A stretch of 64,000 nucleotides of DNA from Arthrobacter pascens (GTDB lineage Bacteria > Actinomycetota > Actinomycetes > Actinomycetales > Micrococcaceae): the NCBI RefSeq assembly GCF_030815585.1, contig NZ_JAUSWY010000001.1:1922001-1986000 (forward strand), written 5' to 3'. The position numbers were made by a program, and so were the translations under genes. The notes under the pieces are model-generated. The model had not been told where the DNA came from. It did not search any database and worked only from the letters and a program-made list of their open reading frames with translations. Every line of letters starts with the position of its first letter. Within the stretch, counting starts at the first letter, position 1. Shown piece after piece: positions 26,306-33,892 of the stretch.

Positions 26306-27334
26306 TTACTCGGCGTCGCTGAGGCTCTTCTTGGCGTCTTCCTCGAGGCGGGGATCCAGCTTGGATTCCTGCGCCTTGGAGCTCACCAGGCTGGCGATGA
26401 CGGCGATGACGATGGTGCCGATGATGACGCCCAGGGACACGTACGTGGGGATCTGCGGAGCCCACTCGATGTGGTGGCCGCCGTTGATGAACGGGAGTTC
26501 GTTGACATGCATGGCGTGCAGCACCAGTTTCACACCGATGAAGGCAAGGATCACGGACAGCGCGTGCTTGAGGTAGATGAGACGGTTCATGAGGCCGCCC
26601 AGCAGGAAGTACAGCTGGCGGAGGCCCATGAGCGCGAAGATGTTGGCGGTGAACACAATGAATGCGCTCTGGGTGAGGCCGAAGATCGCGGGGATCGAGT
26701 CCACGGCGAAGAGCAGGTCGGTCATGCCGATGGTGATGAAGACAATGAGCATCGGGGTGAAGACCTTCTTGCCGTCCACGGTTGTCCGCAGCTTGCCGCC
26801 GTCGAACTTCTCCGACATCGGAATCACCGTGCGGATCTTGGCGATGATCGGGTTTTCCTTGTCCTCTTCGTCTTCGCCTTCGTCCTGCGCCTGCTTCCAC
26901 GCGGTCCACAGCAGGAAGGCACCGAAGATGTAGAAGACCCAGCTGAACTGTTCGATGACGATAGCACCAAGCATGATGAAGATTCCGCGCAGGATGAGCG
27001 CGATGATGATGCCCACCATCAGCACTTCCTGCTGGTACTTACGCGGCACCGAGAAGCGGGCCATGATGATGATGAAGACGAAGAGGTTGTCGATGCTCAG
27101 GCTGTATTCGGTGACCCAGCCGGCCACGAATTGCCCGCCGTACTCAGGGCCGGTAAACAGGAACATTGCGCCGGCGAAAACCAGGGCCAGGGCCACGTAA
27201 AAAGCCACCCACAGGCCGGCTTCCTTCATGGAAGGCTCATGCGGGCGACGGAGCACCAGGAGAAGGTCAAGAGCAAGGATGAGACCGAGGACGACGAATG
27301 AGCCGACCTCGAACCAGACGGGAAGTTCGAGCAC
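26306..27334 (-). CDS. terC: TerC-family membrane protein (probable manganese exporter)
   Basis: A 342-residue integral membrane protein of the TerC/Alx/YkoY family. The two family motifs with acidic residues inside membrane helices are present: SLDNLFVFIIIMARF near residue 80 and FAVDSIPAIFGLTQ near residue 205, with an acidic cytoplasmic loop (EGEDEEDKEN) between the halves. Recent work on this family points to Mn(2+) export. GTG at 27334 is chosen because AAAGG lies seven bases before it; an upstream extension would enter the leader. The leader carries a probable yybP-ykoY manganese riboswitch, which supports the metal role. Confidence 0.9.
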   Translation of the reverse strand: MLELPVWFEVGSFVVLGLILALDLLLVLRRPHEPSMKEAGLWVAFYVALALVFAGAMFLFTGPEYGGQFVAGWVTEYSLSIDNLFVFIIIMARFSVPRKYQQEVLMVGIIIALILRGIFIMLGAIVIEQFSWVFYIFGAFLLWTAWKQAQDEGEDEEDKENPIIAKIRTVIPMSEKFDGGKLRTTVDGKKVFTPMLIVFITIGMTDLLFAVDSIPAIFGLTQSAFIVFTANIFALMGLRQLYFLLGGLMNRLIYLKHALSVILAFIGVKLVLHAMHVNELPFINGGHHIEWAPQIPTYVSLGVIIGTIVIAVIASLVSSKAQESKLDPRLEEDAKKSLSDAE

Positions 27335-27367
27335 AGGGATACCTTTCGCAGGGTACAGAGAAGCGGT

Positions 27368-27481
27368 GTAAGTCTCTCCGGCCAGCCTGTGCACTTGGTG
27401 CTGAATCGGCGGCCCGCTACGCCCGGCCAGGCAACCATGCCTGGCGTGTTGACGATCGTAGCGCTCGGGATACTCCCCTAC
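27368..27481 (-). ncRNA. yybP-ykoY (Mn2+) riboswitch upstream of terC
   Basis: Reading the minus strand, the leader begins GUAGGGGAGUA (27481-27471), contains AUCGUCAACA (near 27455-27446) followed by a hairpin (CCAGGCA/TGCCTGG at 27427-27444), and ends CGGAGAGACUUAC (27380-27368). GGGGAGUA, CGUCA and GAGAC(C/U)U are the conserved blocks of this riboswitch class, and GUAGG pairs with CUUAC to close P1. The class is named after and commonly precedes TerC-family genes. A TACAGT -10 hexamer at 27496-27491 would start the transcript just before P1. Confidence 0.78.
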
Positions 27482-27543
27482 GTGACGTTAACTGTACCCC
27501 AGCCGGAACGGTGCCTGCTTCCATGTCTGCTTGTGTGACCAGC

Positions 27544-29643
<2,100 letters not shown>

Positions 29644-29725
29644 GAATCTAATCTACAACCGGGGGCCGACAGTAACAGTCCCAGTCCGTTACGGGCGAAC
29701 GGTTTTCAGGAGCGGGCAAACCTGG

Positions 29726-30949
29726 TCAGGACGGGTACGACGGCGGCGCCCACCCCGAGCTCCTGGCCCACCGCTCCATCGGGTCTTCGGCCGCCGCGAA
29801 CCAGGCCTCCTTGTCTGCCGCGTACCCGGCTGTCGAAGCGTCAGCGGCGTGGAGTTCCGCCAGGCGGCGCTTGAGGGCGAGGTAGTCCCCTGCGGCGGCG
29901 GGCTCCGCCTTGAGCCAGTCCCGGAAACACAGCGCAAAACGCCATCCCGGGGAACCTGCAGCACGGACATGGAGATTGACGGCACGGCCGGGATCGGCGT
30001 TGGCATGGAACCGCTTGCCCCAGTCTTCGGCGGCCGGCCGGGATGCCTTGGGCACATCCGAGGTGATGCCAGCTACACGGGGGAAACCGGCGGCAGCAAG
30101 GACGGGAGCCAGGGCATCAGCGGCGGCCAGGTCCGGGACGCCCAGCTGAAGGTCAATGACGTCCTTGGCATCAAGGCCAGGCACTGACGTTGATCCGATA
30201 TGGTCCAGGCCAAGGACCGCATCCCCATGTCGCTCCCTCAGCGCGGCCCGGAGCCGGTCCACCAGCCGGTCGGCGTGCTGCGGCCACTCGGGCCTTGGGG
30301 GGTGGAGCTCCGGTCCGCCGGGCCTGGCCGCAACGGAGGCGGCCTCAAGGTTCCGTGCGAAAGGCACCAGCCGATTGGCCCAGAGCCGGTCCACCTGCTC
30401 CCCGAGCTGCTCCAGGGTGCCGGAATTGTCGAGGACCGCATCGGCGGCGGCCAACCGGTCCTCGCGGGATGCTTGCGCCGCCATGCGGGACTTCGCCTGG
30501 TCCGCCGTCATCCCACGGCGCTCCAGCATCCGCCGTGTCCGGACATCATCCGGAGCGTCCACCACCAGCACCAGGTGGAAATTGCTGCCCTGGCCCGTCT
30601 CGACCAGGAGCGGAATATCCTGGACCACGACGGCCCCGTCCGCGGAGGAAGCCATGATGCCGGCCGCGGCTTCGCGGACCAGCGGATGGATGATCCCGTT
30701 TAGGACCGCCAGGCGCGACGGGTCACCGAACACGACCGAACCCAGCTTTGCCCGGTCCAGCCTGCCATTGCCATCCAGCATGTCGCTGCCGAAGGCTTCG
30801 ACAACGCCGGCCAGCCCAGGGGTACCCGGCTCCACGACTTCCCGCGCCAGCGCATCCGCATCAACCAGTACCGCCCCCAGTCCGGCCAGCCGTGAGGCCA
30901 CCACTGACTTGCCTGAGGCGATGCCGCCCGTCAAACCGATCTTCAGCAC
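29726..30949 (-). CDS. coaE: Dephospho-CoA kinase fused to a GrpB/UPF0157 domain
   Basis: A 407-residue two-domain protein. Residues 1 to about 200 are dephospho-CoA kinase (last step of coenzyme A synthesis), with P-loop GLTGGIASGKS at 5-15 and the lid segment around RRMLERRGM. Residues about 220-400 form a GrpB domain of the nucleotidyltransferase fold, with GSTSVPGLDAKDVIDLQLGV. The fusion occurs in several actinobacteria, including Mycobacterium, and the role of the second domain is unsettled. GTG start at 30949 with TAGGCT six bases upstream and no Shine-Dalgarno. Confidence 0.93.
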   Translation of the reverse strand: MLKIGLTGGIASGKSVVASRLAGLGAVLVDADALAREVVEPGTPGLAGVVEAFGSDMLDGNGRLDRAKLGSVVFGDPSRLAVLNGIIHPLVREAAAGIMASSADGAVVVQDIPLLVETGQGSNFHLVLVVDAPDDVRTRRMLERRGMTADQAKSRMAAQASREDRLAAADAVLDNSGTLEQLGEQVDRLWANRLVPFARNLEAASVAARPGGPELHPPRPEWPQHADRLVDRLRAALRERHGDAVLGLDHIGSTSVPGLDAKDVIDLQLGVPDLAAADALAPVLAAAGFPRVAGITSDVPKASRPAAEDWGKRFHANADPGRAVNLHVRAAGSPGWRFALCFRDWLKAEPAAAGDYLALKRRLAELHAADASTAGYAADKEAWFAAAEDPMERWARSSGWAPPSYPS

Positions 30950-32284: not shown

Positions 32285-32350
32285 CCCGCAGTAGACGCAC
32301 CGAAACGTACGTTTGTGTGCGTTAAGTGCCAGTCAGATGGCCTGTTAAAC

Positions 32351-32384
32351 ACAGCGGGCCCCTGCTTTCGCAGGGGCCCGCTGT
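32351..32384. terminator. Bidirectional terminator between GNAT gene and rpsA
   Basis: A perfect 14-bp GC-rich stem (ACAGCGGGCCCCTG and its complement) with a CTTTCG loop. The plus strand continues TGTTAG and the minus strand TTTAAC, giving short U-containing tails both ways. It lies between two converging genes and can end both transcripts. Confidence 0.9.
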
Positions 32385-32416
32385 TGTTAGCCCGGGAAGC
32401 CCCGGGCCGGTGGCAA

Positions 32417-33892
32417 TTAGTTGCCGGTCAGCTTCTCGCGGAGTGCTGCAAGAGCCTCGTCCGAAGCAAGCGTGCCTGCACCGGTCTCGGCCACAGCAGG
32501 CTCGGAGGAGTAGCTGGTGGTGCCGGAATCGCTGTCACCGGACGTTGCTGCTGCAGCGTCGTCGGCGGCGTGCTGGGCAACCTGCTTCTTGTGTGCTTCC
32601 CAGCGGGTCTGGGCGTCAGCGTACTGCTGCTCCCAGGCTGCGCGCTGGTTCTCGTAGCCTTCAAGCCACTCGTTGGACTCCGGGTCGAAGCCCTCCGGGT
32701 ACTTGTAGTTGCCTTCTTCGTCGTACTCAGCGGCCATGCCGTAGAGAGCCGGGTCGAATTCGGTGCTCTCGGCGTCGACGCCCTCGTTGGCCTGCTTGAG
32801 GGAGAGGGAGATGCGGCGGCGCTCGAGGTCGATGTCGATGACCTTGACGAACAGCTCGTCGCCAACGGAGACAACCTGCTCCGCCAGCTCAACGTGGCGG
32901 ACTGCGAGCTCGGAGATGTGGACCAGGCCTTCGATGCCGTCTTCGACGCGGACAAACGCACCGAACGGAACCAGTTTGGTGACCTTACCCGGAACAACCT
33001 GGCCGAGGGCGTGGGTGCGGGCGAAGGTCTGCCACGGATCTTCCTGCGTAGCCTTGAGCGACAGGGAGACGCGTTCGCGGTCCAGATCGACCTCGAGAAC
33101 CTCGACGGTGACTTCCTGGCCAACCTCGACAACCTCGGACGGGTGGTCGATGTGCTTCCAGGAGAGCTCGGAAACGTGGACGAGGCCGTCTACGCCGCCC
33201 AGGTCCACGAAGGCACCGAAGTTGACGATGGAGGAAACGACGCCGGGACGGACCTGGCCCTTTTCCAGCTTGTTGAGGAACGTGGAGCGGACCTCGGACT
33301 GGGTCTGCTCGAGCCAGGCACGGCGGGACAGCACAACGTTGTTGCGGTTCTTGTCCAGCTCGATGATCTTGGCTTCGATCTGCTGACCGATGTACGGAGC
33401 AAGGTCGCGCACACGGCGCATCTCGACGAGGGATGCGGGCAGGAAGCCGCGCAGACCGATGTCGAGGATAAGACCACCCTTGACAACCTCGATGACGGTA
33501 CCGGTGACGACACCGTCTTCTTCCTTGACCTTCTCGATGTCGCCCCAGGCGCGCTCGTACTGAGCACGCTTCTTGGAGAGGATCAGGCGGCCTTCTTTGT
33601 CTTCCTTGGTGAGCACCAGGGCTTCGACCTGATCGCCAACGGAGACGACGTCTCCGGGATCAACATCGTGCTTGATGGAAAGCTCGCGGGAGGGGATGAC
33701 ACCTTCGGTCTTGTAACCGATGTCGAGCAGAACTTCATCGCGGTCGACTTTGACGACGGTACCTTCGACGAGGTCTCCGTCGTTGAAGTACTTGATGGTG
33801 GCGTCGACTGCTGCGAGGAAGTCCTCAGCGGTACCGATGTCGTTAATTGCGACTACGGGGGTACCGGGCTTCTCGGTGGAGGTGATGGTCAT
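32417..33892 (-). CDS. rpsA: 30S ribosomal protein S1
   Basis: A 491-residue S1 protein with four S1 RNA-binding repeats, starting near residues 38, 120, 205 and 292 (for example GDLVEGTVVKVDRDEVLLDIG and GQVVPGKVTKLVPFGAFVRVEDG), followed by an acidic/low-complexity tail. It binds mRNA and helps 30S initiation. Actinobacterial S1 has four repeats rather than the six of E. coli, so the length is normal. A long leader of about 150 bases with a strong promoter precedes it. S1 often represses its own translation, and the leader hairpin at 33965-33991 is a candidate site. Confidence 0.97.
   Translation of the reverse strand: MTITSTEKPGTPVVAINDIGTAEDFLAAVDATIKYFNDGDLVEGTVVKVDRDEVLLDIGYKTEGVIPSRELSIKHDVDPGDVVSVGDQVEALVLTKEDKEGRLILSKKRAQYERAWGDIEKVKEEDGVVTGTVIEVVKGGLILDIGLRGFLPASLVEMRRVRDLAPYIGQQIEAKIIELDKNRNNVVLSRRAWLEQTQSEVRSTFLNKLEKGQVRPGVVSSIVNFGAFVDLGGVDGLVHVSELSWKHIDHPSEVVEVGQEVTVEVLEVDLDRERVSLSLKATQEDPWQTFARTHALGQVVPGKVTKLVPFGAFVRVEDGIEGLVHISELAVRHVELAEQVVSVGDELFVKVIDIDLERRRISLSLKQANEGVDAESTEFDPALYGMAAEYDEEGNYKYPEGFDPESNEWLEGYENQRAAWEQQYADAQTRWEAHKKQVAQHAADDAAAATSGDSDSGTTSYSSEPAVAETGAGTLASDEALAALREKLTGN

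Follow-up and report, generated by a model that had tools for sequence, protein, structure and literature searches.

The yybP-ykoY aptamers whose crystal structures have been described fold around a four-way junction (PMC6754395). In the same report, loop L3 reads ACA48U49ACU52 in the X. oryzae aptamer and UCA41AU43UC in the L. lactis aptamer, and the N7 contact to Mn2+ is placed on the third base of both runs. For the S. pneumoniae mgtA RNA, a three-way junction is described in a review (PMC9495176). Among the target genes, the B. subtilis TerC proteins MeeF and MeeY are reported to show Mn efflux activity and to help exported enzymes acquire their metal, and a Mn riboswitch controls meeY (PMC10550928). 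In Vibrio parahaemolyticus, terC lies behind a yybP-ykoY RNA and is reported to be induced by Mn, and the loss of terC raises cell Mn (PMC13274385). The idea of an actinobacterial terC riboswitch is not new, because the C. glutamicum gene cg2157 was given one in 2013 (PMC3890552). Among the titles listed in searches of open-licence papers, none dealt with a manganese riboswitch in Arthrobacter or Micrococcaceae, or with a terC-type three-way variant across Actinomycetes.

The terC leader described here comes from Arthrobacter pascens and lies in the window, which is the whole stretch of 64,000 nucleotides that was analysed. The terC mRNA is concluded, with a probability of roughly 80%, to begin with a three-way-junction variant of the yybP-ykoY Mn2+ riboswitch, which probably switches translation on. 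Judged by sequence comparison, it is highly probable that the leader belongs to this riboswitch class.

The terC locus

The genome containing the window is 4.73 Mb in size. Its nearest named terC relatives, among the matches listed, are from Arthrobacter, Pseudarthrobacter, and Paenarthrobacter. The terC gene (26306..27334, minus strand, with a GTG start at 27334-27332) encodes a protein of 342 aa. From residue 2 on, the product exceeds the cut-off of the TerC family (PF03741, E 4.9e-52, 176.7 bits against 27.8). The upstream neighbor, with UvrB domains, is uvrB (27544..29643, minus strand). The gap between the two genes (27335-27543, minus strand) is 209 bases, as the sequence-only reading had counted, and it holds a -10 element, the RNA element, and a Shine-Dalgarno (SD) sequence. 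The SD sequence, GAAAGG (27342..27347, minus strand), was recognized from the sequence 7 bases 5' of the GTG at 27334.

The -10 promoter element GGTACAGT (27491..27498, minus strand) includes the hexamer TACAGT (27496-27491). The transcript is predicted to start around A27483, which agrees with the earlier proposal that this element starts the RNA just before helix P1. At a constant distance from P1, the sequence GGTANNNT recurs in no fewer than 94% of the 33 leaders left after dereplication. A conserved -35 was not found in these 33 leaders, and a consensus sigma-70 scan of the terC leader found no -35/-10 pair.

Some other features of the window were observed. An open frame of 858 aa on the plus strand (27298-29874) is antisense to uvrB and is likely a by-product of the high GC content rather than a gene. 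An ORF on the minus strand (29726-30949, 407 aa) encodes a protein which we take to be dephospho-CoA kinase-like in its first half and GrpB/UPF0157-domain-like in its second half. A strong GC-rich inverted repeat, GCGGGCCCCUGC/GCAGGGGCCCGC, is seen on the minus strand at 32346-32418. It is possibly a terminator, and it shows a weak match to BjrC68 (25.9 bits against a cut-off of 39).

Conservation of the element

Three ordered blocks on the minus strand had drawn attention to the leader, and all three are where they were reported: GGGGAGTA at 27478-27471, CGTCA at 27454-27450, and GAGACTT at 27376-27370. As RNA they read GGGGAGUA, CGUCA, and GAGACUU, in the right order for the class. No instance of the ordered pattern turned up when one strand of 24 Mb of first-order random sequence, generated from the dinucleotides of the window, was searched. 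In the 4.73-Mb genome it occurs twice, in the terC leader and at the locus L137, and the backward control gave no occurrence. L137 was dropped as it has no match to the R2 model described below. The pattern with a gap of 40-70 is too narrow for the true gap, and the genome count was made with a wider one.

Relatives were collected by a TerC protein scan of genome contigs, and the best 80 of 569 encoding stretches were used. In all 80 of these named terC relatives (the best 80 of 569), the element is present with CGTCA as the second block. A stricter test for exact GGGGAGTA, CGTCAA, and GAGAC is passed by 64 of the 80 named loci, three of which (L036, L070, and L098) do so on the strength of an unrelated CGTCAA alone. 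Of the 16 loci that fail, 15 lack CGTCAA, and the other, L100, carries AAGGGAGTA.

The 80 leaders were dereplicated at 94% similarity to 32, and together with the window they form the alignment A1. In its 33 rows, 54 columns are invariant. RNAalifold, run on A1 with no structure supplied, returned P1, L1, P1.2, a three-way junction, P3 with L3, and P4. Covariation was counted on the structure named from the sequence. Both-side changes are found in 25 cells, while the shuffles, which ignore relatedness, give 7.9 +/- 2.2. Of the cells of this structure, 95.5% are paired, and the share falls to 27-44% when the structure is slid by 1-3 columns. Further pair types show no excess (16 against 14.9 in shuffles; 156 of 500 shuffles reach 16).

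The explanation that the three short blocks arose by chance in a leader of high GC content would have on its side the second occurrence of the pattern in the genome and the negative scan with the Rfam model RF00080. The empty 24 Mb of random sequence, the 80 of 80 relatives (best 80 of 569), and the covariation all speak against it. This explanation is already refuted by the relatives, and its probability is practically nil.

Structure of the element

The entire conserved element, the predicted aptamer, covers 27365..27483 on the minus strand, as delimited by the 33-leader alignment and its consensus fold. All coordinates in this section are on the minus strand. The closing P1 pairing that had been suggested is present. 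It is formed by the 5' strand GUAGG (27477..27481) and the 3' strand CUUAC (27368..27372), the latter placed by the alignment and by the P1 pair counts, and it has five pairs, one of them G-U. At least 79 of the 80 relatives have a standard pair at each position; among 32 other loci the number is 25 to 32, and exchanges occur. Inside P1, the two sides of L1, GGAGUA (27471..27476) and GAGA (27373..27376), are invariant in the 33 dereplicated rows. They are followed by P1.2, in which UCC (27468..27470) pairs with GGA (27377..27379) and which shows exchanges across Actinomycetes.

The P3 arm (27415..27463) is composed of an outer helix (27463-27457/27421-27415) and an inner helix (27445-27439/27432-27426). 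The inner helix, GCCAGGC/GCCUGGC, is the internal hairpin already recognized from the sequence. Both-side changes occur at two outer-helix pairs and three inner-helix pairs, and P3 is also recovered by RNAalifold. Another register of P3, in which CGUC pairs with GGCG, was rejected because columns 27-65 show C-G, U-A, and G-C, even though this pair is broken in 6 of 33 rows. The P4 arm (27380..27414) is variable in length, and its basal pairs are 27414-27412/27382-27380. In the RNAalifold structure, P4 (columns 72-122) shows both-side changes in 11 of 33 rows.

Loop L3 consists of the seven bases UCAACAC (27446..27452). Its third base, A27450, is predicted to be the adenosine that contacts Mn2+ through N7, by structural analogy. 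The first three positions of L3 are UCA in 152 of 152 terC-type loci, which is no independent count as the scan seeks CGTCA-like blocks. One L3 7-mer among these loci, TCACGAC, is probably mis-anchored.

The leader thus has the features by which the class is recognized: an L1 internal loop, GGGGAGUA/GAGAC, closed by P1, a seven-base L3 with an invariable adenosine at the third position (UCAACAC), and a position 5' of TerC genes. The four-way junction of the crystal structures is not seen in it. The distance from AGUA to the CG before L3 is 16 bases in the window, which leaves no room for a P2 arm, and RNAalifold gives three arms. All 80 close loci (best 80 of 569) have a spacing of 16-17, all 45 loci found with R2 one of 16-19, and four of five RF00080 loci one of 16-20. 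The spacing is 20 or less in 25 of 27 other loci found with R1, where one value of 6 is probably mis-anchored. Space for a P2 arm exists in L122 (30 bases), L125 (29 bases), and the RF00080 locus L001 (38 bases).

Distant loci and the relation to RF00080

The search with RF00080, by which the class assignment of the sequence-only reading was to be checked, came out negative. In the window there was nothing at the gathering cut-off (45 bits) or at E<=1. Even at E<=10, there was no match in the 351-base region or across the genome, and 20 of 20 other terC-type loci were unseen. Among 197 genomes of the class Actinomycetes, 19 reached E<=1 and none passed the cut-off, and two of 14 control genomes had matches above it.

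Distant sequences were needed as P1 and P1.2 are nearly constant among the close rows. A covariance model, R1, was built from A1, that is, from Micrococcaceae leaders alone. It scores the element of the window, itself one of the training rows, at 134.3 bits, and at E<=0.1 it finds matches in 46 of the 296 genomes of the class that were scanned. A broadened model, R2, was built from 39 sequences; at E<=0.001 it has matches in 269 of 394 genomes of the class and in 94 of 100 genomes of the family. In the large scans the filters were set more strictly, at the cost of weak matches, and the E-values of R1 and R2 are rough; therefore, gene association is the better control. The fetched loci are the best-scoring ones, secondary copies, and others picked by hand, and do not represent a random draw. 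A TerC gene is downstream in 29 of 30 fetched R1 loci (among the 30 are the site in the window and two others from its genus) and in 45 of 46 further R2 matches. Altogether, 74 of 76 fetched matches precede TerC genes, the site in the window included. There are two exceptions. The R1 match at L124 precedes a small PGPGW membrane protein (PF09656), and the RNA at L153/L184 precedes a frame for a P-type cation ATPase (1591 codons from stop to stop), a different target gene. At L179 (G390), two copies of the RNA lie ~1.3 kb apart, and a TerC gene follows each.

Pairing in the distant loci was counted by anchoring on the motifs in 27 fetched loci and five RF00080 loci, with L103-L105 left out. L096 is mis-anchored in this count and in the CGUAGGG/CCCUGCG count given below, and its leader is normal. 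For P1 and P1.2 together, 245 of 256 cells in the 32 loci are paired, against 217 +/- 3 in shuffles and 228 in the top one of 2000. P1.2 shows the exchanges UCC/GGA, UUC/GAA, CUC/GAG, GUC/GAC, and GCC/GGC, and P1 shows exchanges too. The outermost P1 pair is weaker (25/32).

R1 also reaches loci that are visible to RF00080. It matches five of the nine RF00080 loci given to it, none of which was in its training (L001-L004 and L006, E 1.4e-7 to 7e-4). The five include all four loci with an RF00080 E below 0.001. The missed loci, L005, L007, L008, and L016, have RF00080 E-values of at least 0.006. R2 matches the same five among all 22 RF00080 loci, and four of these five are R2 training sequences. 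In L001-L004, the R1 match takes in the segment from GAGAC to the P1 3' strand, which is outside the RF00080 match. L002 precedes a gene for a Na/Ca exchanger, and L003 and L004 precede GDT1 genes. With RF00080 itself, six of the loci given to R1 reach 17.7-32.4 bits, under the cut-off of 45. By sequence, the R1 matches indirectly indicate common ancestry with accepted yybP-ykoY members, though the linking loci are themselves below the RF00080 cut-off. The failure of RF00080 is not taken as a refutation, because it missed 20 of 20 loci of the family while R1 links to RF00080 loci. The negative result looks like blindness of the model.

The claim of a yybP-ykoY manganese riboswitch on terC has therefore to be divided. 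Conservation, covariation, gene association, and the overlap of R1 with RF00080 loci stand for it, and its core, a yybP-ykoY-type riboswitch on terC, is well supported at the level of sequence. The RF00080 score is negative and the junction has three arms against four in the crystal structures; hence, the element is not filed as a member of RF00080 but as a variant, whose mode of action is probably that of the members.

An ordinary structured or protein-bound 5' UTR, which has no ligand and serves, for example, as an mRNA-stability or autoregulatory element, would fit a leader with a high GC content and a good fold (z -2.36, with 6 of 200 shuffles equally good), and also a switching step that is not clear-cut in the genus of the window. 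The conserved L1 and L3 in 152 terC-type loci and the overlap with RF00080 loci are unexpected for a plain UTR, which makes this explanation very improbable. It is also improbable, to a lesser degree, that the structured terC leader descends from or resembles yybP-ykoY and uses the L1-L3 fold to sense another divalent ion or pH. RF00080 cannot score the element, and its L3 is unlike the ACAUGCU, ACACACU, and ACAUACU of the RF00080-visible loci. Other substrates have been reported for TerC proteins (PMC12054061), and according to a review the S. pneumoniae mgtA RNA also binds Ca2+ (PMC9495176). Against a different ligand, the first four bases of L3 are those of the L. lactis Mn2+ structure, L1 is identical, and efflux of divalent metals would suit the targets, namely the P-type ATPase, GDT1, and TerC.

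Expression platform

In the preferred reading, a Mn2+ riboswitch that turns on translation, high Mn2+ would dock L1 against L3 with A27450 as a soft ligand and would stabilize P1. Without Mn2+, P1 would open and one of its strands would pair at the ribosome-binding site. The strand may differ among hosts. In many relatives, the freed P1 3' strand would pair with the SD sequence itself. In the genus of the window, the P1 5' strand, as CGUAGGG, would instead pair with CCCUGCG touching the SD sequence. In this way, Mn2+ would turn on the translation of terC, leading to Mn2+ export or the loading of secreted enzymes.

In many relatives, the P1 3' strand recurs as an arm of a hairpin, opposite an arm that includes the SD sequence or abuts it. 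Examples are CCUUCGGUAC/GUACCGAAGG in L108 and CCUCCGGUA/UACCGGAGG in L117. A helix of at least 7 pairs between the region of the P1 3' strand and an SD-like stretch is seen in 17 of 26 leaders (L106-L132 without L124). When P1 is forced, the SD sequence is freed in 15 of 25 other leaders and hidden in four (L103-L105, L124, and L130 were left out of this test). From these folding models, it is likely that the hairpin represents the layout of a translational ON switch.

The genus of the window is without this hairpin. Sequestration of the SD sequence by the P1 3' strand is unsupported there by the P1-forcing test. When the P1 5' strand is masked in 81 close leaders, the SD sequence is unpaired at a mean of 0.50 without P1 and 0.43 with P1; its accessibility rises with P1 in eight leaders and falls in 32. 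In the close leaders L039 and L073, an anti-P1 hairpin is seen that does not include the SD sequence. Such a hairpin was rejected as a general feature among the leaders compared.

The candidate competitor of P1 in this genus is CCCUGCG (27347..27353, minus strand), which abuts the ribosome-binding site and can pair with CGUAGGG (27482-27476), the stretch containing the P1 5' strand. Of 81 leaders, 65 have the seven pairs unbroken, and for 69 no more than 5% of shuffled segments give an equally good match. Covariation between the two stretches is nearly absent, because the 5' strand hardly varies. In the window, the calculated energies are -59.0 kcal/mol for the P1 state, -65.1 kcal/mol for the alternative helix, and -67.6 kcal/mol for the free minimum. 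In the unconstrained ensemble of the window, the probability is 0.00 for P1 and below 0.01 for the alternative helix. P1 is near zero in all 80 leaders, and the P1 5' strand is paired downstream at more than 0.5 in only 29 of 80. A translational ON switch is the best guess for this genus in the modelled structures, with even odds for its detail.

It is possible, though rather unlikely, that the same Mn2+ aptamer controls transcription in this genus, through Rho or RNA polymerase pausing, or that Mn2+ lowers expression. The close leaders show no simple release of the SD sequence, with the opposite change in 32 of 81, and the anti-P1 hairpin of L039 and L073 spares the SD sequence. Rho is reported to be involved at E. 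coli mntP (PMC11647493). On the other side, no intrinsic-terminator-like site was found in the terC leader, and the pairing of SD-like stretches in 17 of the 26 other leaders counts for the translational switch.

TerC paralogs and distribution in Actinomycetes

The genome has three TerC genes; the two paralogs of terC (L134 and L135) score 166.5 and 164.4 bits. The ordered motif set is absent from the fetched flanks of both, and across the genome the terC leader is the sole match to R2. No GDT1 or Mntp gene was found in the genome by family searches. The RNA therefore points to terC as the paralog likeliest to be devoted to Mn2+.

For the Actinomycetes as a whole, there is about an even chance that a three-way Mn2+ riboswitch lineage, largely dedicated to terC, with an L. 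lactis-like L3 and invisible to the current Rfam, extends across the class, and that in Micrococcaceae its P1 5' strand has been rewired as the competitor at the ribosome-binding site in place of the 3' strand. If so, Mn2+-responsive RNA control of terC would exist in a large share of Actinomycetes where Rfam is silent above its cut-off, and one aptamer would be combined with two different expression platforms. The compact aptamer also offers a test case for whether Mn2+ sensing needs the fourth junction arm.

Comparison with known systems

The element resembles RF00080 yybP-ykoY in L1 with GGGGAGUA and GAGAC, in P1, in P3 with a seven-base L3, in P4, and in its position before TerC-family and cation-transport genes. 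It differs in that the terC leader is unscored by the model, the P2 arm is missing, and L3 is UCAACAC, not ACAUACU-like. The Mn2+ riboswitch of S. pneumoniae mgtA differs in its Firmicute host (PMC9495176).

The leader of C. glutamicum cg2157 (terC) is likewise an actinobacterial terC leader RNA, which was assigned to yybP-ykoY and observed in RNA-seq (PMC3890552). Unlike the element of the window, it is reported with 49.1 bits under the 2013 Rfam model; the likeness between the two is drawn from its description. Two further yybP-ykoY predictions in C. glutamicum, with 43.7 and 49.9 bits, are given in the same source as unobserved in RNA-seq.

The L. lactis aptamer (PDB 4Y1I) has a four-way junction, in contrast to the three-way junction in the leader of the window (PMC6754395). 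It is located upstream of yoaB (PMC9190785), whereas the element described here is upstream of terC. In L3, the two are equal at bases 1-4 and 7 (UCAAUUC and UCAACAC), and both have adenosine at position 3 (PMC6754395). The RF00080-visible loci have ACAUGCU, ACACACU, or ACAUACU as L3, and the terC-type loci have a UCANCAC-like L3; therefore, two loop types appear to exist on one scaffold. On the sequence level, this contrast is of the same kind as that between L. lactis and X. oryzae.
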